Shown: positions 9,011 to 61,150 of the stretch, piece by piece | How the letters are laid out: every line of letters begins with the position of its first letter | How positions within the stretch are numbered: the first letter of the stretch is position 1 | Origin: Burkholderiaceae bacterium | GTDB lineage: Bacteria; Pseudomonadota; Gammaproteobacteria; Burkholderiales; Rhodocyclaceae | DNA: 61,880 nt | Reading direction: 5' to 3' | NCBI GenBank assembly: GCA_021738065.1 | Contig: JAIPCT010000010.1 | Location: forward strand, 1-61,880 | The notes under the pieces: model-generated | The model's database searches: none | Seen by the model: the letters and a program-made list of their open reading frames with translations, nothing else | Told to the model about the DNA's origin: nothing | Program-made: the position numbers and the translations under genes

Positions 9011-9322
9011 CTACGTCGATTCCATGATGTAGTCAGCGACATTTCCAAAGACTGTCAGCAGCCAGTCCCGATCAATCCAGAACCAGACTTCCTTGCCAAT
9101 CTTTTTCGACTGAAGCACGCCGGCATCACGTAAAACTTTTAGGTGATGGGATACGGTCGAGCGCGCCAAAGTAGAAACCTCGGCGATCTGCCCCACATTG
9201 AGGTGTTCGCCAGGTTCAAATAACAACAGAATGCGTTGGCGATGCTCGTCGCCCAAGGCCACAAACACCTTGGACATCTCTCGCCACTGAGATGGAATTG
9301 CTCTTCCGTAGTTCTTTTTCAT
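9011..9322 (-). CDS. ArsR/SmtB-type winged-helix regulator
   Basis: A 103-residue DNA-binding protein with the ArsR fold: LGDEHRQRILLLF, then NVGQIAEVSTLARSTVSHHLKVLRDAGVLQSKKIGKEVWFWI (recognition helix STVSHHLKVL and wing). There is no CxC metal-binding motif in the recognition region, so the signal is not an arsenite-type thiol ligand; the single-domain proteins of this type can sense other cues. It lies 108 bases upstream of, and in line with, the TelA-containing operon and probably controls it. The start is uncertain: ATG 9322 lies 7 bases after a -10 box; an internal ATG at 9277 would give an 88-residue protein. Confidence 0.85.
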   Translation of the reverse strand: MKKNYGRAIPSQWREMSKVFVALGDEHRQRILLLFEPGEHLNVGQIAEVSTLARSTVSHHLKVLRDAGVLQSKKIGKEVWFWIDRDWLLTVFGNVADYIMEST

Positions 9323-9855: not shown

Positions 9856-11226
9856 TCAGGCGGCCTTTGGCGGCCAGTCGACCTGGGGCAGTCCTTTGAG
9901 CGCCTCGTCCACCAATTCCTTCGGATAATCGAAGTCTTCCAGTTGGCCCGACAGATAACGGTCGTAGGAGGCCATGTCGAAGTGGCCGTGGCCGGAGAGG
10001 CAGAACAGCAGGGTCTTCGGCTCGCCCGATTCCTTGCAGCGCATCGCTTCGTCGATCACCGCACGAATCCCGTGGCAGGATTCCGGCGCCGGAATGATGC
10101 CTTCGGCCTTGGCGAACATCACGCCGGCGGCAAAGGTCGCTACCTGCGGCACGGCAACGGCTTCGATCAGCTTCTCGTGGTACAGCTGCGAGACCAGCGG
10201 CGATTCGCCGTGATAGCGCAGGCCGCCAGCGTGGATGCCGGGAGGCATGAAGTTGTGGCCCAGGGTGTACATCTTCATCAGTGGGGTGTAGCCGGAGACG
10301 TCGCCGTAGTCGTAGGCATACACGCCCTTGGTCATCGACGGGCAGGAGGTCGGTTCGACACCGACCAAGCGGACCTTTTTGCCCGCCGCCTTGTCGGCGA
10401 GGAAGGGGAAGGCAATGCCGGCAAAGTTCGAGCCGCCGCCGCAGGGTGCAAACACCATGTCGGGATACTCGCCAACCTTGGCCAGCTGCGCCTTGGCTTC
10501 CTGGCCAATGATGGTCTGGTGCAGCAGAACGTGGTTGAGCACCGAGCCCAGCGCATAGTTTGTGTCCTTGCGCGAGGCGGCTTCTTCAACAGCTTCGGAA
10601 ATCGCCAGGCCGAGGCTGCCCTGATTGTTCGGGTCTTCGGCCAGTGCCTTGCGACCGGCTTCGGTCATGTCGGTCGGGCTGGGGAAAACATTGCCACCCC
10701 AGGTCTGCATCATTGAGCGACGATAGGGTTTCTGCTCGTAGCTGATCTTCACCATGTAGATGCGTACTTCGATGTCGAACAACTGTCCGGCAAACGACAA
10801 CGCGGAACCCCACTGGCCGGCGCCGGTCTCCGTCGTCAGGCGCGAAAAGCCGGCCTGTTTGTTGTAGTAGGCCTGCGGTACCGAGGTGTTGGTCTTGTGC
10901 GAACCGGAGGGGCTGACGCCCTCGTACTTGTAGAAAATCTTGGCCGGTGTGCCGAGCATTTTTTCCAGACGGTGTGCGCGCATCAGGGGCGTCGGACGCC
11001 ACAGTTTGAAGATTTCACGAACCTCTTCCGGAATGGCAATCCAGCGCTCGGCACTCATTTCCTGCTCGAGAAGATTTCCCGGGAAGATCGCCAGCATCTG
11101 CTCCGGTGTCACCGGATTGCCGTCGGGTGCCAGCGGCGGCAGCGGGGGATTGGGCATGTCGGCCACCACGTTGTACCAATGGGTGGGTATCTCGCTCTCA
11201 TCCAGCATGATGCGGGTCTGTGTCAT
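9856..11226 (-). CDS. trpB2: Tryptophan synthase beta chain, TrpB2 (TrpB-like) subgroup
   Basis: A 456-residue PLP enzyme that joins indole and serine to make tryptophan. The long N-terminus ([19 protein letters not shown]) and length identify the TrpB2 group rather than the ~400-residue TrpB1 that pairs with TrpA. PLP Lys is K111 in SGSHKTN; the phosphate loop is PCGGGSN. The start is placed at ATG 11226, where AAGGAGA sits upstream; the longer open frame adds 24 unlikely residues. No trpA is nearby and a strong terminator follows, so it is a stand-alone gene. TrpB2 proteins are thought to recycle indole or act on related substrates such as O-phosphoserine. Confidence 0.93.
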
Positions 11227-11618
11227 TTCTCGTCTCCTTGATAATTGTATTGGACTACACAATCTTGTTTTCCCCGCCGCAACAATAGTTGCGACCAAGT
11301 AATGACGCTTGCGTTTGCCTGCAATGCAACTACATTTTTAATCCTGAATCAGGATGGCTCGAGGGCGGATGAAAGGCGGTATCGCTCTCGACCCGAAAGT
11401 CTAATACGGGATACAGTACACTGTATGCAAACTGAGGATGTGATGTCAATCTCTTTGATAGGGTTTTTTGCCGGCAGCGCCGATGGAAGCGATGGTGCTC
11501 CGCGGCAATGGGCAGATCGATACATCGGGCTGACGACATTCCGGCACAATCTGCGTGTCCGGTCGAAGCTGTGACCGGATGCCGCTAGTGTCGCTCATGC
11601 GAGGGCTTGAGAGTACAA
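11227..11618. other. Divergent promoter region between trpB2 and the xdhC operon
   Basis: 392 bases with no gene. It separates divergent trpB2 (minus) and the Mo-maturation operon (plus) and must hold both promoters. The clearest structure is the dyad at 11411-11426, listed separately. Confidence 0.5.
11411..11426. promoter_or_regulatory. Dyad-symmetric operator candidate
   Basis: ATACAGT-AC-ACTGTAT: two perfect seven-base arms separated by two bases. It is about 190 bases from both divergent starts. The form is that of a binding site for a dimeric helix-turn-helix regulator; the regulator is unknown. Confidence 0.45.
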
Positions 11619-11942
11619 ATGAATACAGACAACGATTCCCTGTTTGAAACCCTGCGTCAGTGGCGGGCGGCGGGCAAATCCGCGGCGCTCGCCACGGTTG
11701 TCAGCACCTGGGGTTCGTCGCCGCGTCCGGCAGGCAGCCATCTGGCGGTCGATGCCGACGGCCATTTCGTCGGCTCGGTGTCCGGCGGCTGCATCGAAGG
11801 CGCGGTGATCGAGGCCGCAGAACAGGTCATGGTCAGCGGCCAGGCGCGGATGCTGGAGTTCGGCGTCAGCGACGAACAGGCCTGGCAGGTTGGATTGGCC
11901 TGCGGCGGGCGGGTGCAGGTGTTCGTCGAGCCGGTCGAATGA
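11619..11942 (+). CDS. XdhC/CoxI family protein, N-terminal domain only
   Basis: A 107-residue protein covering the XdhC/CoxI N-terminal domain: LATVVSTWGSSPRPAGSHLAV, then SGGCIEGAVIEAA with the conserved Cys, and GLACGGRVQVFVE. XdhC binds molybdenum cofactor, helps install its terminal sulfur and delivers it to xanthine-dehydrogenase-family enzymes. The usual Rossmann half is a separate gene starting within this stop codon (ATGA, four-base overlap). I choose ATG 11619; TTG at 11607 is also open. First gene of the operon. Confidence 0.88.
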   Translation: MNTDNDSLFETLRQWRAAGKSAALATVVSTWGSSPRPAGSHLAVDADGHFVGSVSGGCIEGAVIEAAEQVMVSGQARMLEFGVSDEQAWQVGLACGGRVQVFVEPVE

Positions 11943-12658
11943 AAGCCGCCATTCTCGACCGTATCACTGCCGCAAGGCGTGCGCGCCAGCCGCTGGTGCT
12001 GGTCACGCGTCTCGCCGATGGCGCGCAGTGCCTGCTGGATGCCGCAACGGCCGCAGGTAGTTTGTCGCTGCCGGCGGTACAGGCGGCGGAAGCCCGAAGC
12101 CTGCTGAGTTCCGGGCGCAGCACGCGCCTGAACTGCGACGAAGGCTTGTTTGCTCGGGCCTATGTGCCGTCGCCGCGCCTTTTGATCGTCGGCGCCGTGC
12201 ATATCGCCCAGGCCCTGGCGCCGATGGCGGCGAGCGCCGGCTATGAAGTCATCGTCATCGACCCGCGTGGCGCCTTCGCCTCGCCCGAGCGTTTTCCCGG
12301 CGTGAAACTGACCGACGAGTGGCCCGACGAAGCCCTGACGCGTCTCGGTCTCGATGCGGCCACGGCGCTGGTGGCGCTTTCGCACGATCCCAAGCTTGAC
12401 GATCCGGCACTCGAACTGGCGCTGCCGAGCACGGTTTTTTACATCGGCGCGCTGGGCAGTCGGCGCACCCATGAGAAACGCCTGGAACGACTGCGTGCCG
12501 CCGGCCTGGGTGAGCTCACCGGACGCATTCATTCGCCGATCGGCATCGATCTGGGCGGTCGCGCGCCGGCCGAAATCGCGGTATCCATCCTCGCCGAGCT
12601 GATCCAGGTGCGCTATCGCGGCGAACATGCGGCAAGCGGCGCGGCAACGCGCGCATGA
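11939..12658 (+). CDS. XdhC family protein, Rossmann domain
   Basis: A 239-residue protein holding the C-terminal XdhC half. After a beta-rich N-terminal lead (RQPLVLVTRLADGAQCLL) it has a nucleotide-binding Rossmann core (PSPRLLIVGAVHIAQALAPMAASAGYEVIVIDPR), then ALVALSHDPKLDDPAL, YIGALGSRRTHEKRLERL and the signature RIHSPIGIDLGGRAPAEIAVSILAEL. Its start overlaps the N-terminal-domain gene by four bases and its stop overlaps the next start (ATGA), so the genes are translationally coupled. Together they form one split XdhC that chaperones Mo cofactor for Mo hydroxylases. Confidence 0.9.
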   Translation: MKAAILDRITAARRARQPLVLVTRLADGAQCLLDAATAAGSLSLPAVQAAEARSLLSSGRSTRLNCDEGLFARAYVPSPRLLIVGAVHIAQALAPMAASAGYEVIVIDPRGAFASPERFPGVKLTDEWPDEALTRLGLDAATALVALSHDPKLDDPALELALPSTVFYIGALGSRRTHEKRLERLRAAGLGELTGRIHSPIGIDLGGRAPAEIAVSILAELIQVRYRGEHAASGAATRA

Positions 12659-14304
12659 TCTTCGGCGAATTTCCCCTGGCCGAGTGCGACGGGCTGCTGC
12701 TGGCGCACAGCCTGCGCCTGCCCGACGGTATATTGAAGAAAGGTCGCCGTCTCACCAGCGCCGACTTTTCGGCGCTTGGCGCGGCAGGTATTCAGCGCGT
12801 CACGGGGGCACGGCTGGAGGCCGACGATGTCGATGAAAACGCCGCCGCCGGCATGCTTGCCGCCGCACTGCGCGGCCCCGGAACAGCCACGCGCGCACCG
12901 CAGGCCGGGCGCTGCAATCTCTACGCCAGCGAGCGCGGCCTGCTCCGCGTCAATGCCGCGATCATCGATGCCGTCAATCGCCTCGATGAGTCGGTGACGC
13001 TTGCCACCTTGCCACCCCTGACAATGGTCCGGGCCGGCGCCGTGATCGCCACGGTCAAGATCATTCCGCTGGCGGTGAAGCGCCAGCTGGTCGACGCCTG
13101 CGCGTTGCAGGCGGCAGTTCAAGACGGGCAGGGGGCCGCACTGGCCATGCTGCCCTTCCGGCCGCAGCGCGCGGCGCTGATCGTCACCGAGCAGCCCGGT
13201 GATCCGCAGCGCAACTACGTCACGGCGGTGAATAGCAGTCGCCGCCGTCTGCAAGATCTGGGCAGCCATCTGGGGCTGGTGCAGCGCTGCGCGCACAACA
13301 GCGACGCCGTCGCCAGCGCCTTGCGCGAAGCCCTCGCGGCGGGCTGCTCGCTGATCCTGATCGCCGGCACCACGGTGCCCAAGGACCGGGCCGATACCGT
13401 ACCCGCCGGCATCGTCGCGGCGGGCGGAACAATCATGCATTTCGGCATGCCGGTAGAGCCGGGCAACATGTTGTTGCTGGCGCAAATCGGCGCGGTGCCG
13501 GTGATCATCCTGCCCGGCTGCGCGCGCTCGCGGCGCAGCAATGGCCTCGACTGGGTCCTGCAACGCATGCTGGCCGGATTGCCGATGGCGGGCGAGCAGA
13601 TCATGGCCATGGGTGTCGGCGGGCTGATCCGCAGTCCGGTGGAAGCCGACGACGAAACGGCGGCGCAGCCGGATGATGCCAAGGCGCCGGCCGGCCGCAA
13701 GGTCGCGGCCCTGATTCTGGCGGCAGGCAGCGGCAGTCGTATGGGCGGCGACAACAAGCTGCTGCGGCCGGTGGGCGGCGTGCCGATGCTGCGGCGCGTG
13801 GCGAACGCGGCTCTGGCTTCGCGCTGCAATTTGGTGCGCGTGGTCACCGGCGCGGCGGCCGTCAGCCTTGAAGCCAGCCTCGCCGGTCTCGAGGTCGAGT
13901 TCACGCACAATCCGCATCATGCAACGGGCATGGCATCGTCCCTGCGCGCCGGCATCGAGGCGCTGGCGCCCGAAGTCGATGCGGTGGTGGTGTTGCTGGC
14001 CGACATGCCGCGTGTCGACGGCGGCCATATCGACCGCCTGCTGGCAGCCTTCGATCCGCAACGGCCCGCGATCATCGTGCCGATGAAAGACGGGCGGCGC
14101 GGCAACCCCATCCTCTGGCCGCGCCGCTACTTCGCCGAAATGCTCGGCGTGCAGGGCGACGTCGGCGCGCGCGAGCTTCTGCAACGCCACGCCGCGCAGA
14201 TCACCGGTGTCGACTTCGACGATGACGCCATCTTTGCCGACGTCGATACGCCCGAGGCCCTGGCGGCGATCGGCGAGTCGCCATGGGCGCGTCGACGCTA
14301 CTGA
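12655..14304 (+). CDS. Fusion of MoeA-like molybdopterin-binding domain and MocA-type cytidylyltransferase
   Basis: A 549-residue two-part enzyme. Residues about 1-335 resemble the molybdopterin-binding part of MoeA/MoaB proteins (LPDGILKKGRRLTSADFSAL, GTTVPKDRADTVPAGI, and FGMPVEPGNMLLL). Residues about 350-540 are a NTP-transferase of the MobA/MocA type with LILAAGSGSRMGGDNKLL, VVVLLADMPRVDGGHID and GRRGNPILWPR. MocA adds CMP to Mo-molybdopterin to make the cytosine-dinucleotide cofactor of Mo hydroxylases, so the fusion probably couples Mo insertion or binding to nucleotide attachment. It overlaps its neighbours by 4 and 22 bases. Confidence 0.9.
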   Translation: MIFGEFPLAECDGLLLAHSLRLPDGILKKGRRLTSADFSALGAAGIQRVTGARLEADDVDENAAAGMLAAALRGPGTATRAPQAGRCNLYASERGLLRVNAAIIDAVNRLDESVTLATLPPLTMVRAGAVIATVKIIPLAVKRQLVDACALQAAVQDGQGAALAMLPFRPQRAALIVTEQPGDPQRNYVTAVNSSRRRLQDLGSHLGLVQRCAHNSDAVASALREALAAGCSLILIAGTTVPKDRADTVPAGIVAAGGTIMHFGMPVEPGNMLLLAQIGAVPVIILPGCARSRRSNGLDWVLQRMLAGLPMAGEQIMAMGVGGLIRSPVEADDETAAQPDDAKAPAGRKVAALILAAGSGSRMGGDNKLLRPVGGVPMLRRVANAALASRCNLVRVVTGAAAVSLEASLAGLEVEFTHNPHHATGMASSLRAGIEALAPEVDAVVVLLADMPRVDGGHIDRLLAAFDPQRPAIIVPMKDGRRGNPILWPRRYFAEMLGVQGDVGARELLQRHAAQITGVDFDDDAIFADVDTPEALAAIGESPWARRRY

Positions 14305-15521
14305 CAGGATGCGGCGACGCCAACACGCTGCGCGCGGAATTTCCGCTGCTGGCGGCGGCACCCGAACTGCACTATCTGGACAGCGCCGCCACTTCGCAAA
14401 TCCATCGCTCGGCGCTGGATGCCGTGCTGCACCACGAAACCACCAGTCGGGCCAATGTCGCACGCGGCACCTATCGGCTGGCCGAAGCCGCCGATCTGGC
14501 TTTTGAAAATGCACGTCGCACCACGGCGCGTTTTCTCAACGCCACGTCGGCCGACGAGATCGTGTTTACCTCGGGCGCCACCGCGTCGCTGAATCTGGTG
14601 GCGCATGCCTTCGGCAATACCTTGCAGGCGGGCGACCGGGTGCTGATTTCGGTGGCAGAACATCACAGCAATTTCGTGCCCTGGCAGATGCTGCGCGACC
14701 GCATCGGGATCGAGCTGGCCTTGATACCGGTGCGCGCCGACGGGCAGCTCGATCTGGCGCGCCTGCCGGAACTGATGGGCAGCCGCTGCCGTCTGCTGGC
14801 GCTGACGCATTGCTCGAACGTGACCGGCGCCCGCACCGATGTCGCCGCCGTGGTCGCCGCCGCGCGCCAGGCCGGGGCCAGGGTTTTGCTCGACGGCGCG
14901 CAGGCGGTGCAGCATGGACCGCAGGACGTGCGTGCGCTGGGCGTGGATTTCTACGCCTTCTCCGGCCACAAGTGCTTCGGCCCGGGCGGCATCGGCGTGC
15001 TCTGGGGCCGCCACGAACTGCTCGCCGCGATGCCGCCGTTTCTCGGCGGCGGCGGCATGATCGGCGGGGTCACGCCGGCACTCTCCACCTGGGCGCCGCC
15101 GCCGCAACGCTTCGAAGCCGGAACGCCGCCCATCGCCCAGGCCATCGGCCTCGCGGCGGCGCTCGAATGGATGCTGGGCCTGCCCTGGCCGCAGATTCAT
15201 GCCCGCGAAGACAGCCTGTGCCGGCAACTGATCGAAGGCCTGCGCGCGATTTCGGATCTGCGCCTGCTCGGGCCCGATGCCGCCGTGTCGCGTGCGCCGA
15301 TAATCTCATTCGAGATGCCCGGCCTGCATCCGCACGACATCTGCCAGGTGCTCGACACGCACGGCCTGGCATTGCGCGGCGGCCATCACTGCGCCCAGCC
15401 GCTGCTGGCGGCGCTGGGCGTGGAAAGTTGCAGCCGTGCCAGCATCGCGCTCTACAACGACGCGGCCGATATCGAGGCCCTGCTGTCGGCGCTCGACGCG
15501 GCGCGGCGGGAATTGACATGA
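14283..15521 (+). CDS. SufS-like cysteine desulfurase (class V aminotransferase)
   Basis: A 412-residue PLP enzyme. Visible signatures: LDSAATSQ near residue 33, TSGATASLN near 96, AEHHSNFVPW near 125, PLP Lys K230 in SGHKCFGP, and the catalytic Cys C370 in RGGHHCAQP, the short-loop SufS-type arrangement. It releases sulfur from cysteine as persulfide. The start lies 22 bases inside the MoeA/MocA gene and the stop overlaps the SufU-like gene. In this setting it most likely supplies the terminal sulfido ligand for Mo cofactor, as NifS4 does with XdhC in Rhodobacter, rather than general Fe-S assembly. Confidence 0.9.
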   Translation: MGASTLLTGCGDANTLRAEFPLLAAAPELHYLDSAATSQIHRSALDAVLHHETTSRANVARGTYRLAEAADLAFENARRTTARFLNATSADEIVFTSGATASLNLVAHAFGNTLQAGDRVLISVAEHHSNFVPWQMLRDRIGIELALIPVRADGQLDLARLPELMGSRCRLLALTHCSNVTGARTDVAAVVAAARQAGARVLLDGAQAVQHGPQDVRALGVDFYAFSGHKCFGPGGIGVLWGRHELLAAMPPFLGGGGMIGGVTPALSTWAPPPQRFEAGTPPIAQAIGLAAALEWMLGLPWPQIHAREDSLCRQLIEGLRAISDLRLLGPDAAVSRAPIISFEMPGLHPHDICQVLDTHGLALRGGHHCAQPLLAALGVESCSRASIALYNDAADIEALLSALDAARRELT

Positions 15522-15994
15522 GCGCGGGCGACTCGCTCTACCAGGAGGCGATCAAACAGTTCGCCCAGGCCGCGCACGGCCACGGGCAACTAGCGCAGGC
15601 GGCGGGCGAAGCCAGGCTGGACAACCGGCTGTGCGGCGACCGCGTGCGCATGCAGGTGGCACTTGCCGCCGACACGATCAGCGCCGTCGCGCATGAGACC
15701 AGGGGCTGCCTGCTCTGTCGTGCCGCCGCCTCGTCGATCGGCATGCACGCGCCGGGGCAGGATCACGCCGGTATCGTCGCCGTCACCCAGGCGCTGCAAG
15801 CCATGCTCGAAAACGGCAGCCCGCTTCCCGCATCCCTTGCCGCGCATTGGCCGGAGCTGGCGATGTTCGAACCGGCGCGGGCCCACCCCAGCCGACACAA
15901 ATGCGTGCTGCTGCCGTTTCAGGCGCTGCGCGAAGCACTCGAAAAATCCACCGCAGCGGGTACCTCCGGCGCGTTCGCGGCTCCCGCCCGATGA
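15518..15994 (+). CDS. SufU-like sulfur-acceptor/scaffold protein
   Basis: A 158-residue IscU/SufU-fold protein. The three metal-ligand cysteines typical of SufU are visible: C39 in NRLCGDR, C64 in RGCLLC (with an extra C67) and C129 in SRHKCVLLPF. SufU in Firmicutes is a zinc-dependent sulfur acceptor for SufS. Its start overlaps the desulfurase stop by four bases, so the two likely form a transfer pair. A SufU-type rather than IscU-type partner is unusual for a proteobacterium and fits a dedicated Mo-cofactor sulfuration role. The last 20 residues are low complexity. The neighbouring GCGCTGATAAAG is a repeat, not part of the gene. Confidence 0.82.
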   Translation: MSAGDSLYQEAIKQFAQAAHGHGQLAQAAGEARLDNRLCGDRVRMQVALAADTISAVAHETRGCLLCRAAASSIGMHAPGQDHAGIVAVTQALQAMLENGSPLPASLAAHWPELAMFEPARAHPSRHKCVLLPFQALREALEKSTAAGTSGAFAAPAR

Positions 15995-16134: not shown

Positions 16135-16704
16135 ATGTCCACAGACCCTCAACGCAAACTCATCCATACCCGGCAGATCATTTGCCGCGCTTTCCATCGA
16201 AAGGACGGCTTGCTCGACATCGAAGCCACGCTGTCCGACCAGAAGGGACAGGAAGTCGCTTTCCGTTCGCGTCCTTCGGTGAAGGTGGATGAGTTCATGC
16301 ATCGCATGACGGTGACGCTGACCATCGACGGCGACTACACGATTCACGATGTCAAGGCCGAAACCGGGCAGGCGCCCTGGGCCATGTGCGGCGGCACCGA
16401 CGACGCCTATCGCGGACTGATCGGACTGCGCATCGGGCCCGGATTCACGCAAAAGATGAAGCAGCTGCTCGGTGGCGTGCAAGGCTGCACCCATGTCACC
16501 GAACTGGTGGCGCAGGCCGCCAACACCTATATGCAAGCTTCATGGCCCGACCGCATTGCGCGGCAGATGGCAGTCAGCGCCGACCCGCGCGGCTGGCCCG
16601 ACAAAAGCACGCTCGGCTTCGTCAATCACTGCCATGCCTGGCGCGCTGACGGCGAAACCCTGGCGCAGGAGTATCCGGAGTTGGTGAAGCCGAAGGAGCC
16701 GTAG
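16135..16704 (+). CDS. DUF2889 family protein
   Basis: A 189-residue cytoplasmic protein matching DUF2889 in length and pattern: an N-terminal IHTRQIICRAFHRKDGLLDIEATLSD, the segment FMHRMTVTLTIDGDYTIHDV, the Cys-bearing PWAMCGGTDDAYRGLIGLRIGPGF and GCTHVTELV. The biochemical role of this family is not known; members often sit by aromatic or hydroxylase catabolic genes. It follows the maturation operon after 140 bases that hold a repeat element, so co-transcription is possible but less certain. Confidence 0.82.
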   Translation: MSTDPQRKLIHTRQIICRAFHRKDGLLDIEATLSDQKGQEVAFRSRPSVKVDEFMHRMTVTLTIDGDYTIHDVKAETGQAPWAMCGGTDDAYRGLIGLRIGPGFTQKMKQLLGGVQGCTHVTELVAQAANTYMQASWPDRIARQMAVSADPRGWPDKSTLGFVNHCHAWRADGETLAQEYPELVKPKEP

Positions 16705-55611: not shown

Positions 55612-58026
55612 TCAATTTGCTTTCCACGGCTTCCAGTAGAGCTTCGGAGTCTGGCCGCGAAGCGCGCGGTAGACGCGTTCCGGAGTGAATGGCAATTCGT
55701 AGATCCGCACCCCGGTGGCGTTGAAGATCGCGTTGGCGGTGGCCGCCGCGATGCAGATCGACGGGGCTTCGCCAACGCCTTTCGCTCCCTGGGGACCCTC
55801 ACCGTCCATGGACTCGATGAAGGAAATGTCCATTTCCGGAATCTCGGGCGCGGTCACCAGTTTGTAGTCGCGGAAGTTCGGATTCTTCATCACGCCGTTT
55901 TCGATCATCAGGTCTTCCGTCAGGGCGTAGCCCTGGCCCATGATGACGCCGCCTTCGATCTGGCCTTCGATGCCGAGGCGGTTCAGTACCCGGCCGACGT
56001 CATGGGCGCCGGTAACCTTGGTCATCTTGACGATGCCGGTATCGGTATCCACTTCGACCTCCACCACTTGCGTACCCCAGGCATAGGCAGCCGAAACGTC
56101 GCCCTTGAAGCCCTTGTCTTGATGCACGCTGGGCGGCTCGTAGTAGAAGGTGGTCATCACCAGTTCGGCCTTGTCCTGGAAGTGCAGGTTGCGCAACAGC
56201 TTCGAGAGTTCGACCACGGCTTCGCCATTGGCGGCCTTGATGACGAAGCCGCCACGCAGATCCAGATCGCTCTCGGCGCATTCGTACTTCGTCGCCGCTA
56301 CGGCAAGGATTTTCGCCTTGGCCTTCTTCGCCGCACCGATCGCCGAGTTGCCGGCGATGAAGGTGGTGCGGCTGGCATGCACGCCGACGTCCCATGGCGT
56401 GATGGCCGTGTCGTTGTTGACCACCGTCACTGCCGAAATCGGCAAGCCGAGCTCTTCGCACACCAGTTGTGAAAGCACGGTTTCCGAACCCTGGCCAATT
56501 TCCGAGGCGCCGGTGATCAGCGTGATATTGGCAAAGTCGTCCATTTTGAGAATGGTGCCGCAGCCGTCCGACGGATAGATTTTTGCGCCACCACCAACGT
56601 GCAACATGGAAGCCATGCCGACGCCACGCTTTATGTTGCCCGCCGCATTGCGATTCGCCACGTTCTCCTGGACCTTGCGCGCGTAGTCGCTGCGTTGCGC
56701 CGCCGTATTGATGCAGTCCTTGAAACCGCAACTCTTGAAACTCATGCCCTGGCCGGTGGTTTCACCCGCATCCTGGGCGTTCTTCAGGCGAAACTCGAGA
56801 GGGTCCATGCCGATTTTCTCGGCCAGCATGTCCATGTGCTGCTCGATGGCGAAGGTGGCTTGCAAATTTCCATAGCCGCGGAAAGAGCCGGCATACGGAT
56901 TGTTGGTGTACACCGCCGCCGTGTGGTAATCGCAGTGTGGCACCCGATACAGCGAGGAGAATGTCTGCATCATGACGAAAGGCGTGGTCGCGCCCCACGA
57001 TGTATAGGCGCCGTTGTCGTGCAGGGTATGCACCTGGCGGAAAGTCAGGGTGCCGTCCTTTTTGCAGCCCGAGCGCAGGGTCAGCAACACCGGTTGGCGC
57101 GTCGGCGAGGCGAGGAATTCCTCTTCCCGGGTGAACAGCATCTTGACCGGACGCTTTGCGGCGCGTGCGAGGTAGAGGCAGATCACCTCGAAGGGATAGA
57201 TGTCGAGCTTGGAGCCAAAGCCGCCGCCGATCGGTGGCTGAATGATGCGGATGCGCGCCGGATCCATGTTCAGGTATTCGGCAAACTCGCGCTTGTGCAG
57301 AAAGGGCACCTGAGTGTTCGAGTACATCAGCAGGTTGCCCGAGGAATCGAACTCGGCAATCATGCCGGAGACGCCCATGCAGCAGTGCGTGACGTAGTGC
57401 AGTTTGAAGGTGTCCTCGATCACCACGTCCGACTCGGCTTCGCCCTGAATCACGTCGCCATGAACGTAGTCGAAGCGCATGGCGATGTTGTCGGGCTTGC
57501 CCTTGTGGGCAATCGACATGCCTTGCTTGAGATGTTCGTGGCTGCCATCGGCGCCATGGGGTTCGGGATGGATCAGGATGGCATCGGGTTTGATCGCGTC
57601 TTCCGGATTGGAAATGACCGGCAGATCCTCGTATTCGACCTTGATCAGTTTGAGCGCCGCCTCGGCTATCTCCTCCGATTCGGCGGCTACCGCCGCGATC
57701 TCATCGCGCTCGCTGCGGACGCGGCCGACCTTCAACGGAAAGTGGTCCTTGGCAACGCCGATCGGGCGCTGATCGGGAATGTCCGCGGCGGTGATGACCG
57801 CGTGCACGCCCGGCAGCGCTTTCGCTGCCGAGGTGTCGATCGATTTGATCAGCGCATGAATGCGGTCGGATCGCAGGATTTTTCCGTGCAACTGGCCCGA
57901 CAGGTTGATGTCGTGGATGTAGCGTGTCTTGCCACTGGCCTTTTCGGGAGCATCCATCTTGGGAATGCGCTTGCCGATCAGCGTGTCGGGTTCGATGACT
58001 CTGGCCTTCTTTTCTGCAACGTTCAT
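55612..58026 (-). CDS. Mo-hydroxylase large (molybdopterin-binding) subunit
   Basis: An 804-residue xanthine-dehydrogenase-family large subunit: GKTRYIHDINLSGQLHGKILRSD, PPIGGGFGSKLDIYPFEV (cofactor loop), active-site loop AGSFRGYGNLQATFAIEQH, ASEIGQGSETVLSQ, and GAKGVGEAPSICIAAATANAI with the catalytic Glu. The CO-dehydrogenase motif AYRCSFR is absent, so CO oxidation is excluded; it should hydroxylate a C-H bond with water. Cytosine-dinucleotide cofactor is expected, supplied by the maturation operon at 11.6-16 kb. Gene order FAD, Fe-S, Mo is as in coxMSL. Confidence 0.92.
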   Translation of the reverse strand: MNVAEKKARVIEPDTLIGKRIPKMDAPEKASGKTRYIHDINLSGQLHGKILRSDRIHALIKSIDTSAAKALPGVHAVITAADIPDQRPIGVAKDHFPLKVGRVRSERDEIAAVAAESEEIAEAALKLIKVEYEDLPVISNPEDAIKPDAILIHPEPHGADGSHEHLKQGMSIAHKGKPDNIAMRFDYVHGDVIQGEAESDVVIEDTFKLHYVTHCCMGVSGMIAEFDSSGNLLMYSNTQVPFLHKREFAEYLNMDPARIRIIQPPIGGGFGSKLDIYPFEVICLYLARAAKRPVKMLFTREEEFLASPTRQPVLLTLRSGCKKDGTLTFRQVHTLHDNGAYTSWGATTPFVMMQTFSSLYRVPHCDYHTAAVYTNNPYAGSFRGYGNLQATFAIEQHMDMLAEKIGMDPLEFRLKNAQDAGETTGQGMSFKSCGFKDCINTAAQRSDYARKVQENVANRNAAGNIKRGVGMASMLHVGGGAKIYPSDGCGTILKMDDFANITLITGASEIGQGSETVLSQLVCEELGLPISAVTVVNNDTAITPWDVGVHASRTTFIAGNSAIGAAKKAKAKILAVAATKYECAESDLDLRGGFVIKAANGEAVVELSKLLRNLHFQDKAELVMTTFYYEPPSVHQDKGFKGDVSAAYAWGTQVVEVEVDTDTGIVKMTKVTGAHDVGRVLNRLGIEGQIEGGVIMGQGYALTEDLMIENGVMKNPNFRDYKLVTAPEIPEMDISFIESMDGEGPQGAKGVGEAPSICIAAATANAIFNATGVRIYELPFTPERVYRALRGQTPKLYWKPWKAN

Positions 58027-58110
58027 GGCGATGTTTCCTTAACGTGAAACAACTCGTTCGAGGCGACTGAACTTAGTCGAGCGAAGCGAGCAAATTGGTA
58101 GCTCCGCCCT

Positions 58111-58132
58111 GGGGCGGGGATGGGGTGGGGGG
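58111..58132 (+). other. G-quadruplex-forming motif
   Basis: Four G-runs of 4, 4, 4 and 6 separated by C, AT and T. Very short loops predict a stable quadruplex on the plus strand, the template strand for the flanking minus-strand genes. It lies in the 173-base gap between two subunit genes. Confidence 0.65.
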
Positions 58133-58199
58133 CCTTCAATTCGCTTTTCGCGTGTTTCATCCTCGGCAGGTGGCGCTCGGTGTCATGAGTGTTCGGTCC

Positions 58200-58673
58200 T
58201 CAGCTGGGTGCGCCGCTCACCGAAGCGATGGCGTCGATGATTTTTTTATAGCCTGTACAACGACACAGGTTGCCCTCGATACCGCGCTTGATACTGCCCG
58301 CATCGCCGCCGCAACCGCTGCGCAGCAGGTGGTCGGCCTGCATGATCATGCCTGGCGTGCAGAAGCCGCACTGAACCGCGCCATGTTCGACGAAGGCGGA
58401 GCGCAGGGCATCGGCCTTGCTGTCATTGGCCAATCCCTCGATGGTGGTGACATTGCGGCCATCGCAGTCGACGGCGAACATCAGGCAGGAGTTGAGCGAT
58501 ACGCCATCGACCTGTATGGTGCAGGCGCCGCATTCACCTTCGCCGCAGCCGTATTTGGTGCCGGTCAGTCCGATCACATCACGCAGCATCGCAAGCGCGT
58601 TCATGGAGACATCAACGGCAACGCGCCGCGTGATGCCATTCAGTTTGAATTCGATGTCATGCTTGAGCGACAT
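58200..58673 (-). CDS. Mo-hydroxylase small (2Fe-2S) subunit
   Basis: A 157-residue two-cluster protein: plant-ferredoxin domain with [16 protein letters not shown] and LNSC, and helical domain with [11 protein letters not shown] and [12 protein letters not shown]. All eight Cys ligands are present. It relays electrons from the Mo site to FAD. It overlaps the FAD-subunit gene by 17 bases. Confidence 0.95.
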
Positions 58674-59523
58674 GGCTGAGTATCCTTTTCGTGATGTTGT
58701 GGATCATTTCCTTGCGGTACCAGGCGGTGGCGCGTACGTCGTCGATCGGTTTGACTTCATCGCGGGCGATTTGTGCGATCTTCTCGATCGTCGCTTCATC
58801 GAGTCGCTGTCCCTCAAGCGCTTGCTCGGTCTGCGACGCGCGTACCGGCGTCGGTGCCACGGCGCCGAAGGCAACCCGGACATTGGACAGGGTGCCGTCC
58901 CTGAAAGTGCCCGCAACGCCGATGGAAATCGTCGAAATGTCCAGAGCGGGTCGCGTTCCGTGTTTGTAGAAATGGGCGACATGCCCCTCTGCCGGCAGCG
59001 GGATGCGCACGCTGGTGACCAGTTCGCAGAGCGATTTGCGGGTCTTGCCCGGGCCGACGAAGAAGGTCGATAGCGGCATGCAGTGGCGGTAGATCTTGTT
59101 TTCCGGCATCGACGCCAATTCGACGCAGGCATCCAGTACCAGCAGCGGAATCAGCATGTCGCCGGCCGGCGAGGCGTTGCAGATGTTGCCGCCGATAGTG
59201 CCGGCGTTGCGGATCTGGTCACTGGCAAAATGGTCGCAGGCCACGACCAGTACCGGCAGACGCTCGCGGATCAGCGGGTGTTCCATTATCTCAGTGATAG
59301 TCGTGAGCGCACCGATGCGGATTTCCTTGCCTTCCAGCGTGATGCCGGAAAGTTGGGGAATATGGCGGATGTTCATCAGCGTCTGCTTGATCTTCAGCCT
59401 TCCCGCCTGGCTTTGCGGCGTCAGGTCGGTGCCGCCGGCCAGTATCGTGACGTCGCCGTCCTTGAGACATTCGACCGCCTGGTCGAGGCTGGTGGGCGCG
59501 AAATAGTGTTTCAGTTCGGTCAT
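58657..59523 (-). CDS. Mo-hydroxylase medium (FAD) subunit
   Basis: A 288-residue FAD-binding subunit: TILAGGTDLTPQSQAG (FAD loop), RNAGTIGGNICNASPAGDMLIPLL, and a C-terminal CO-dehydrogenase-flavoprotein domain. It lacks the four-Cys 4Fe-4S insert of 4-hydroxybenzoyl-CoA reductase beta subunits, so it belongs to the ordinary hydroxylase group. ATG 59523 is used since the family N-terminus (LKHYFAPTSLDQAVECL) starts there. Confidence 0.93.
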   Translation of the reverse strand: MTELKHYFAPTSLDQAVECLKDGDVTILAGGTDLTPQSQAGRLKIKQTLMNIRHIPQLSGITLEGKEIRIGALTTITEIMEHPLIRERLPVLVVACDHFASDQIRNAGTIGGNICNASPAGDMLIPLLVLDACVELASMPENKIYRHCMPLSTFFVGPGKTRKSLCELVTSVRIPLPAEGHVAHFYKHGTRPALDISTISIGVAGTFRDGTLSNVRVAFGAVAPTPVRASQTEQALEGQRLDEATIEKIAQIARDEVKPIDDVRATAWYRKEMIHNITKRILSHVAQA

Positions 59524-59536
59524 TTTTCCATCTTTC

Positions 59537-61150
59537 TCAAAAGCGAATCGGTTCCTGATAGCGGCCGAATACATTGACAAGCTCTTTCGTCATTTCGCCC
59601 ACGCTGGCATAAGCCTTTACCGCTTCGACCAGCGCCGGCATGACGTTGTCGCCGGCTGCTGCTGCTGCTCGCAGGCGGCTGAGTGCGGCATCCACGGCGG
59701 TGTTGTCCCGCTCGGCACGAATCCGCTTGAGGCCTTCGATCTGCACTCGCGCGTCGTCCTCGTTGTAGGGGTGAAACTCGACCGGATGGTCTTCTTCCTG
59801 CTCATTGCGATAGCAGTTGACGCCGACCTTGGGGAAGGCGCCCGACTCGATATCGCGCTGCATTTTGTAGGCTTGTGCCGAGACCTTGGCCTGGATGGTG
59901 CCTTCGGACACCATCTTGACGATGCCGCCCTGGGCATCGGTTTCGGCCATGATTTCCTCCATCTTGCTGCGCATTTCATTGGTCATGGTCTCGACATAGA
60001 ACGAGCCAGCCAAAGGATCGACGGTTTCAGTCAGGCCCATTTCCTCGATCAGCAGCTGCATGGTGCGCAGTGAAATGCGCGCCGAGTACTCGGTGGGGAT
60101 GGTGTAGGCCTCGTCGTAGGAACACAGCGCCATGGTCTGCGTGCCGGACAGCGCCGAAATCAGCGCGTAGTAGGCGCCGCGCATGATATTGACTTCCGGT
60201 TGTTCGAAGGTCAGGCCGCCGCCGCCGCCGGCAGCGATCATGCGCAGCCACATCGAGCCCGGCTTTTCGGCACCGTACTCCTCCTTCATGATCTTGGCCC
60301 ACAGCCCTCGACCGGCGCGGAATTTGCAAACCTGCTCGAAGATGTTGCCGAAAATGTTGAAGTTGTACGACAGGCGTCCGGCAAATTCGTCGACCGAGAG
60401 GCCGCGTTTGATGGCGTCGTCGGCATAGGCTTTGGCGATGGAAAATGCGTAGGCCATTTCCTGGGCCGGCGTCGCGCCCGACTCGCGGATGTGATAGCCG
60501 CAGACCGAGACCGGGGTGTATTTCGGCGCGTGCGTGGCGCAGTACTCGATGGTGTCGCCGACCAGGCGGATCGAAGGCTCCACCGGAAAGATCCAGGTGC
60601 CGCGGCCGATAAATTCCTTGAGGATGTCGTTCTGCGCCGTGCCGCGTAGTTCCTTGATGTCGTAGCCGCGCTTTTCCGCCATGGCGAGATACATCGCGAT
60701 CAGGATCGCAGCGGCGCCATTGATGGTCAGCGAGACGGTGATCTTCTTCAGATCGATACCGTCGAAGGCAATTTCGAAATCGCGCAGCGTGTCGATCGAC
60801 ATGCCGACACGGCCGATTTCACCTTCGGCCAGGGGATCGTCTGAATCGAGACCGATCTGTGTCGGCAGATCGAAGGCGACATTGAGCCCGGTCTGACCGT
60901 TGGCGATCAGGTACTTGAAACGCTGGTTGGTGTCGGCCGGGTTGCCGAAGCCGGCATACTGGCGCATGGTCCAGGGTTGCTTGCGATACATTTCGCGGTG
61001 AATGCCGCGGGTGAAGGGATACTGACCGGGCTCGCCGACCATCTCCATGCCGCCGCTGGCGGCGACGTCCTCCGCCGTGTAGAGCGGCTTGACTTCGATG
61101 CCGGATTCGTTGATCACTTTCTTTATGGTGGGCTTCTGCGGTGCATTCAT
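59537..61150 (-). CDS. B12-dependent acyl-CoA mutase large subunit (methylmalonyl-CoA-mutase type)
   Basis: A 537-residue catalytic subunit. Substrate-defining positions match methylmalonyl-CoA mutase: Tyr65 in WTMRQYAGFGN (Tyr89 in the Propionibacterium enzyme) and Arg183 in KEFIGRGTWIFP (Arg207), rather than Phe/Gln of isobutyryl-CoA mutase. So a carboxylated acyl-CoA, methylmalonyl- or succinyl-type including alkyl-substituted, is expected. The cobalamin domain is on a separate gene. Start ATG 61150. Confidence 0.92.
   Translation of the reverse strand: MNAPQKPTIKKVINESGIEVKPLYTAEDVAASGGMEMVGEPGQYPFTRGIHREMYRKQPWTMRQYAGFGNPADTNQRFKYLIANGQTGLNVAFDLPTQIGLDSDDPLAEGEIGRVGMSIDTLRDFEIAFDGIDLKKITVSLTINGAAAILIAMYLAMAEKRGYDIKELRGTAQNDILKEFIGRGTWIFPVEPSIRLVGDTIEYCATHAPKYTPVSVCGYHIRESGATPAQEMAYAFSIAKAYADDAIKRGLSVDEFAGRLSYNFNIFGNIFEQVCKFRAGRGLWAKIMKEEYGAEKPGSMWLRMIAAGGGGGLTFEQPEVNIMRGAYYALISALSGTQTMALCSYDEAYTIPTEYSARISLRTMQLLIEEMGLTETVDPLAGSFYVETMTNEMRSKMEEIMAETDAQGGIVKMVSEGTIQAKVSAQAYKMQRDIESGAFPKVGVNCYRNEQEEDHPVEFHPYNEDDARVQIEGLKRIRAERDNTAVDAALSRLRAAAAAGDNVMPALVEAVKAYASVGEMTKELVNVFGRYQEPIRF

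Follow-up and report, generated by a model that had tools for sequence, protein, structure and literature searches.

The window analysed here is a stretch of 61,880 nucleotides from a Burkholderiaceae bacterium (contig JAIPCT010000010.1, assembly GCA_021738065.1). It carries an operon in which two XdhC half genes, a gene fusing a molybdopterin-binding domain to a MocA-type domain, and the genes of a SufS-type cysteine desulfurase and a SufU-type protein follow each other (Table 1). The association of XdhC with SufU is conserved and mostly unnoticed, and SufU is likely the sulfur adaptor of an XdhC system. In this system, SufS probably loads SufU with a persulfide and SufU passes the sulfur to the molybdenum (Mo) cofactor held by XdhC. 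Across the loci compared, XdhC is constantly paired with SufU, whereas SufS is replaceable.

The operon genes and the relay residues

The sequence-only reading had placed in this part of the window five genes coupled by overlaps of 4–22 bases. The open reading frames (ORFs) were indeed found there, all on the + strand, with successive overlaps of 4, 4, 22, and 4 bases and with families confirmed by Pfam. XdhC family domains scored above cut-off on two separate genes (PF02625, 96.3 bits, cut-off 24.3; PF13478, 142 bits, cut-off 29.7). Each half fell far under the cut-offs of the XdhC equivalog models TIGR02964 and NF045664, as expected for halves, and we thus assigned them to the XdhC/CoxI family and to neither equivalog. 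The SufS (TIGR01979, 471.2 bits vs. a cut-off of 475.1, i.e., 4 bits short), the SufU (TIGR01994, 73.7 vs. 92.5 bits), and the MocA half of the fusion (NTP_transf_3, 141.1 bits; TIGR03310 MocA, 147.5 bits, under the cut-off of 186.45) were also below the closest curated NCBI cut-offs and are thus named SufS-type, SufU-type, and MocA-type. In the predicted model of the fusion protein, with a predicted local distance difference test (pLDDT) score of 90.4, the MocA half matched Rv0371c (2we9; Z 25.5, 190 aligned residues). The first half had no Pfam match of its own in the window protein (threshold for PF00994, E 0.01); PF00994 (MoCF_biosynth) matched 26 of 39 homologues, a weak match, and the fold lists for this half were filled by MocA-domain matches only. 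The families proposed from the sequence were thus recovered for the split XdhC, MocA, SufS-like, and SufU-like proteins; "MoeA-like" reduced to a weak MoCF match, no test pointing to a Mo insertase.

In the SufS-SufU system of Mycobacterium tuberculosis, the zinc of SufU swaps its ligand Cys40 for His354 of SufS and the freed Cys40 takes the persulfide of Cys373, and Escherichia coli SufS, which has Tyr in place of this His, does not work with M. tuberculosis SufU (PMC10216065). The corresponding residues of the operon SufS, His351 (= His354) and Cys370 (= Cys373), as well as the pyridoxal phosphate (PLP) Lys230, were invariant in all 59 rows including the window. Tyr8, Cys39, Gly40, Asp41, Cys64, Cys67, Arg126, and Cys129 were invariant in 81/81 rows of the operon SufU. 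As Cys39-Asp41 and Cys64-Cys67 lie inside the motifs used in the genome scan described below, only Tyr8, Arg126, and Cys129 are free of motif selection. Of the 25 rows used for comparison, which were canonical SufU in 24 cases and the IscU of the genome itself (L060) in one, 12 also had Cys at the position of Cys67. The LPPVK motif of IscU, which the genome's own IscU has, was found in 0/81 operon SufU. One SUF-linked SufS (L191, genome G342) had Asn replacing the docking His, and the operon SufS of the same genome bears His.

Quick trees, with support from the Shimodaira–Hasegawa-like approximate likelihood ratio test only, divided the operon SufS (59 rows; support 99) and the operon SufU (81 rows; support 100) from the SUF or comparison rows sampled, in each case by a well-supported branch (the 25 SUF SufS rows include two identical pairs). 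The predicted SufU model (pLDDT 95.5) gave template modelling (TM) scores by target of 0.84–0.90 with the SufU structures 6jzw, 6jzv, 8odq, and 9dcl and mostly of 0.68–0.79 with IscU entries; its top match was 2qq4, titled IscU of Thermus thermophilus. Many other genomes of the phylum encode a third NifU_N-fold protein resembling Brucella 5uft (loci L202, L203, L205, L207-L212, L214, L215, L218, L221, L223, and L224), in which CGS replaces CGD and the third Cys is missing, so that part of the zinc site is lacking.

Table 1. Features of the operon, its 3' neighbour and the probable client genes in the window.
Feature	Position	Strand	Evidence
XdhC N-terminal half (XdhC_CoxI domain), 107 amino acids	11619..11942	+	PF02625 E 1e-27; ATG at 11619
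XdhC C-terminal half (Rossmann domain), 239 amino acids	11939..12658	+	PF13478 E 1.8e-41
Molybdopterin-binding (MoCF/MoeA-like) domain, residues ~1-345, fused to MocA-type cytidylyltransferase domain, ~349-549	12655..14304	+	NTP_transf_3 E 4.7e-41
SufS-type cysteine desulfurase, 412 amino acids	14283..15521	+	Aminotran_5 E 8e-126; PLP Lys230, His351, Cys370 by alignment
SufU-type protein, 158 amino acids	15518..15994	+	NifU_N E 1.2e-6; Cys39, Asp41, Cys64, Cys67, Arg126, Cys129
DUF2889 protein, 140 bases 3' of SufU; system membership uncertain	16135..16704	+	PF11136 E 1.3e-38
Probable client: Mo hydroxylase M (58657-59580), S (58200-58673), and L (55612-58026) genes	55612..59580	-	PF00941/PF03450, PF01799/PF00111, PF02738/PF20256/PF01315

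XdhC beside SufU in other genomes

A first search of 300 genomes of the order with the window SufU protein recovered, besides the window, five close relatives at 46–55% identity, four of them from one genus. Both XdhC halves adjoined SufU in all five, the MoCF/MocA fusion in one, and SufS in none. In this genus, the stretch that separates XdhC from SufU encodes a protein recognized by eye as GTPase-like (L045 2702-4225, L046 2460-4319). No XdhC match was found at 10 loci of 10–19 kb with canonical SufU (~30% identity; L050-L059), which had SufS except for L057, nor beside canonical SufU/SUF genes at the 20 loci of a second control (L172-L191).

We then considered a wide scan of species genomes in which the SufU alignment and one of two motifs were required and the best 80 of 118 relatives were kept. 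At 73/80 loci, XdhC was located no more than 6 kb upstream of SufU; among the 73 loci offering 4 kb or more of sequence on that side, 70 had it. The operon genes, whose order the sequence-only reading had proposed to search for, recurred in the same order in other genomes, and the complete set (both XdhC halves, MoCF domain, SufS, and SufU) was present at 41/80 loci, or 47 if either half counts; such recurrence of an identical order indicates that the arrangement is more than chance. SufS adjoined SufU at 58/80 loci, and 21 of the 73 XdhC-bearing loci had XdhC and SufU without SufS (the lack of SufS at L102 is uninformative because only 1,034 bases were available upstream). The link with XdhC thus does not simply follow from the existence of a SufS-SufU unit. 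The earlier idea that cofactor handling is packaged with a desulfurase/acceptor pair therefore stands as to the packaging, which is real and conserved in order; it is SufU, not the pair, that constantly accompanies XdhC. The XdhC halves were split at 53 and fused at 13 of 66 judgeable loci. Seven loci lack XdhC; at four of them the sequence stops less than 2.4 kb upstream, and the other three are L133, L137, and L139.

The carriers included, in the tree, alpha-, beta-, and gammaproteobacteria and one metagenome-assembled genome (MAG) labelled as a deltaproteobacterium. Many locus records are MAGs with doubtful names; finished genomes (AP021857, CP059265) and isolates of Aromatoleum, Dongia, and Paramagnetospirillum are also among the carriers. 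The counts are not independent, since 18/80 loci are close kin of the window. In a motif-free check, 398 genomes of the phylum were searched with a profile and the seven top-scoring genomes were followed. The full residue set was present in the window and five other genomes, G364 being without it, and XdhC adjoined SufU in three of these five (G611, G356, G483). The association is thus strong, not universal.

Turning to the possible clients, the PF02738 hydroxylase was found in 48/50 operon genomes, and a large-subunit match lay inside the fetched flanks, often short, of 19/80 loci. The genes at L093 and L079 run hydroxylase S-L-M, AAA (CoxD-like), CoxE, CoxG, then XdhC, fusion, SufS, and SufU, an arrangement that extends a cox-like cluster. 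The large subunits of L093, L085, L096, L117, and L122 were below the CO dehydrogenase cut-off. The hydroxylases of L118 and L124, 74% and 83% identical to that of the window, lie 6–7 kb from XdhC-SufU.

Other neighbours were less regular. XdhC-MocA gene fusions read from ORF ends at L088 and L114 were dropped because the XdhC matches are in another frame; at L114, Pfam gave no XdhC in the ORF once read as such a fusion. The DUF2889 gene follows SufU in 19/80 loci, all close relatives (L062-L079 and L136, tblastn map). An NnrS gene (PF05940) is located 3' of SufU at L124 (12835-14037), with NnrS-like ORFs recognized by eye at L049 and L118. Divergent from the window operon are the genes of an ArsR-family regulator (9011-9322, -) and a TrpB-like PALP enzyme (9856-11298, -), and L065 carries a close TrpB-like ORF at the matching position.

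Desulfurase supply, the proposed relay and its alternatives

The host assembly (3.40 Mb, 148 contigs, 87.6% complete) encodes a hydroxylase L/S/M set about 40 kb from the operon in the same window, so that the description of the operon as lying away from any hydroxylase gene was true only locally. A further large-subunit gene is present on contig C126. No NCBI model assigns the window enzyme (top score 601 bits, 4-hydroxybenzoyl-CoA reductase, cut-off 994.55). PF13478 matched the operon gene only, thus leaving, as far as this assembly goes, one XdhC for two hydroxylase large subunits. IscS and IscU scored above curated cut-offs on contig C94, adjoining a third, NifS-like desulfurase. The operon pair is therefore not the only iron-sulfur (Fe-S) sulfur system of the genome; a pair standing alone in this role is what the sequence-only reading had named as counting against it. 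SufB/SufD (PF01458) were not found in this 87.6% complete assembly.

To follow the origin of the desulfurase, we used 50 genomes, 49 of them from the 80 loci and picked for spread, plus the host genome of the window. A SufS-type enzyme was found in 50/50 and SufB/SufD in 20/50, including one 55-bit match in G309. Counting this match as absent, SufB/SufD were present in 5 and absent from 30 genomes with SufS in the operon, and present in 14 and absent from one where the operon lacks SufS (Fisher p 1.6e-7). Among the 15 genomes with a SufS-less operon, another SufS adjoins SufB/SufD by coordinates in 14 and lies elsewhere in the fifteenth (G344, L129), and this replacement SufS carries the SufU-docking His in 15/15. 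Canonical SufU also follows the SUF-linked SufS in 13/14, L175 being without a match in the fetched stretch. On the XdhC_C+SufU tree, the presence of SufS in the operon changes nine times. Two lone SufS (L188, L189) were rejected as XdhC partners: L189 reached 651.9 against a cut-off of 800 with the model of the encapsulin-cargo desulfurase, and in the tree L188 is sister to L189. The SufS-family gene of L189 (Aromatoleum tolulyticum, G343:C20), most like an encapsulin-cargo desulfurase, adjoins hydroxylase M, S, and L homologues.

The relay builds on observed features, namely gene identity, order, conservation, residues, and an assembly with a single XdhC in which SufB/SufD were not found. 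The operon would be a dedicated factory for finished, sulfurated Mo cofactor. MocA, aided by the fused MoCF domain, would add cytidine monophosphate to Mo-molybdopterin, and the XdhC halves would bind the cofactor. With sulfur drawn from cysteine, SufS would form a persulfide on Cys370. SufU, of the zinc type, would then dock via its metal onto His351 of SufS and accept the persulfide on Cys39, a zinc-ligand swap carried over from the work on M. tuberculosis and Bacillus subtilis. Finally, SufU may hand the sulfur, directly or via Cys67, to the cofactor held by XdhC, producing the Mo=S ligand that the hydroxylases need. In this last step, the sulfuration on XdhC is carried over from the Rhodobacter capsulatus work and the delivery by SufU is one that we infer.

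Several observations weigh against this relay. Lys before the third Cys is a stated mark of SufU (PMC10216065), and position 128 is Lys in just 5/81 operon SufU vs. 23/25 comparison rows. R. capsulatus NifS4 sulfurates the cofactor on XdhC without an acceptor protein (PMC2997495). Two Thiodiazotropha loci (L133, L137) have a bare SufS-SufU pair with no XdhC in reach. In Paramagnetospirillum (L139), SufS-SufU come after a MocA-type gene and homologues of hydroxylase S and M, with no XdhC match, and in the motif-free search G379 had SufS-SufU without an XdhC match nearby and G715 had SufU alone. As for the replaceable SufS, of the four supported independent pairs, on average 3.4 went opposite ways and 0.0 went the same way (median p 0.25). 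These pairs are too few, so that the SufS/SufBD pattern is suggestive and unproven once kinship is respected. Judged by eye, the genes flanking the pair at L133 and L137 resemble those of an F420-type oxidoreductase and of a radical SAM protein of the CofG/H type.

The alternative that fares best, although we consider it unlikely, is that SufS and SufU specifically provide [2Fe-2S] clusters to the small subunit of the hydroxylase, SufU being the scaffold and the link with XdhC reflecting only a shared client. The hydroxylase clients do carry two [2Fe-2S] domains (Fer2, Fer2_2), the order at L139 fits such a supply, and the PDB entry 9dcl is titled as a [2Fe-2S] SufU from M. tuberculosis. However, the genome already has IscS and IscU, SufB/SufD were not found in 30/50 operon genomes (the 55-bit match of G309 taken as absent), and the operon SufU lack LPPVK. 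Furthermore, the neighbours at most loci are XdhC and MocA, with hydroxylase L in reach, within the often short flanks, in 19/80, and one section of the M. tuberculosis study is headed "Mtb Zn-SufU Is Not an Intermediate in Fe-S Formation" (PMC10216065).

It is less probable still that SufS/SufU feed an earlier step (the molybdopterin dithiolene, via MoaD) or several thio-cofactors and were placed here for co-regulation. The desulfurases of other bacteria supply several pathways (PMC8300815), and L133, L137, and G379 would agree with such a role. However, the genome has IscS, and it is the late-acting XdhC that constantly accompanies SufU instead of moaD/moaE/moeB, no search having been aimed at MoaD genes.

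Delivery of selenium by the pair, as proposed for selenium-dependent Mo hydroxylases, appears very improbable. The absence of SelD could not be used as an argument against it, since SelD is present in the genome (434.6 bits, cut-off 125), and the gene set of these hydroxylases includes the selenocysteine-lyase-like class V enzyme EF_2568 together with MocA- and XdhC-related families (PMC2276186). However, SelD is on a different contig (C121), the operon desulfurase is SufS-type (TIGR01977 (EF2568), 200.7 bits vs. a cut-off of 377), and its SufU partner carries the persulfide-relay residues, no search having been aimed at YqeB (TIGR03309). Both proteins are of families known from SUF, but a stray or backup general Fe-S system present here by chance is hardly credible in view of the gene order kept across classes, the clades separate from sampled SUF proteins, and a genome with IscS/IscU in which SufB/SufD were not found.

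A broader scenario built on the SufS–SufU–XdhC relay, on which we are evenly divided, is that proteobacteria turned the front half of SUF into a SufS -> zinc SufU -> XdhC relay, SufU with the invariant extra Cys67 being the specific adaptor. The desulfurase would be encoded in the operon or borrowed from SUF, one SufS then feeding two cofactors via two SufU, and the link to iron-sulfur building would have been lost where SufB/SufD are lacking. The relay matters because the origin of the catalytic sulfur on the Mo of xanthine-oxidase-type enzymes has been detailed in bacteria for one pair, NifS4-XdhC. If the relay is correct, a SufU-type carrier would explain the passage of sulfur without free sulfide, this hydroxylase class would gain a named, deletable sulfuration step, and SufU would not be bound to iron-sulfur clusters. 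In practice, co-expression of sufU (and sufS) may be required to obtain active recombinant hydroxylases of these bacteria.

Comparison with known systems

No publication placing SufU in Mo cofactor sulfuration was found among open-licence full texts and among titles and abstracts, which is not proof of absence; a sulfur-delivery route with a SufU step for Mo enzymes thus appears undescribed. The closest known system is XdhC-NifS4 of R. capsulatus, in which NifS4 directly sulfurates the cofactor on XdhC. As proposed here, XdhC binds the cofactor and a desulfurase sulfurates it before its insertion into the hydroxylase (PMC2997495, PMC10609526). In contrast to the operon, the R. capsulatus desulfurase acts on XdhC itself and the available parts of these sources describe no acceptor, whereas the constant neighbour here is of SufU type and the SufS-type desulfurase is optional.

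With the SufS-SufU systems of B. subtilis and M. tuberculosis, the operon shares a type II desulfurase with the docking His and a SufU with the acceptor Cys, the zinc Asp/Cys, Arg, and the third Cys (PMC10216065). These systems serve Fe-S assembly together with SufB/C/D, and SufB/SufD were not found in the genome studied here. Unlike them, the operon proteins form clades apart from the SUF rows sampled, and the operon SufU mostly have another residue than Lys ahead of the third Cys and always carry Cys67.

The proximity of an XdhC family gene and a MocA-type gene is also known from pucA-pucB of B. subtilis and xdhC-mocA of Arthrobacter, for which, unlike here, SufS/SufU are not mentioned in the part of the source available (PMC2997495). 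In CO dehydrogenase, CoxD is held responsible for sulfuration, and L093 and L079 recall coxDEFG of Oligotropha carboxidovorans in that genes of AAA (CoxD-like), CoxE, and CoxG proteins separate hydroxylase S-L-M from XdhC. However, sulfuration in that species needs CoxD acting on the folded enzyme, without mention of SufS/SufU in the accessible text (PMC4240915), and the window operon is without cox D/E/G. The eukaryotic Mo cofactor sulfurase ABA3/MOCOS similarly couples a desulfurase to a cofactor-binding module, except that both are fused in one polypeptide, whose MOSC domain has no relation to XdhC (PMC2997495). Lastly, the Mo hydroxylase set linked to SelD brings together, as here, a class V desulfurase/lyase with XdhC-related and MocA (YgfJ) families, but with selenium, an EF_2568-type enzyme, and a SirA-like protein (PMC2276186) instead of SufS and SufU.

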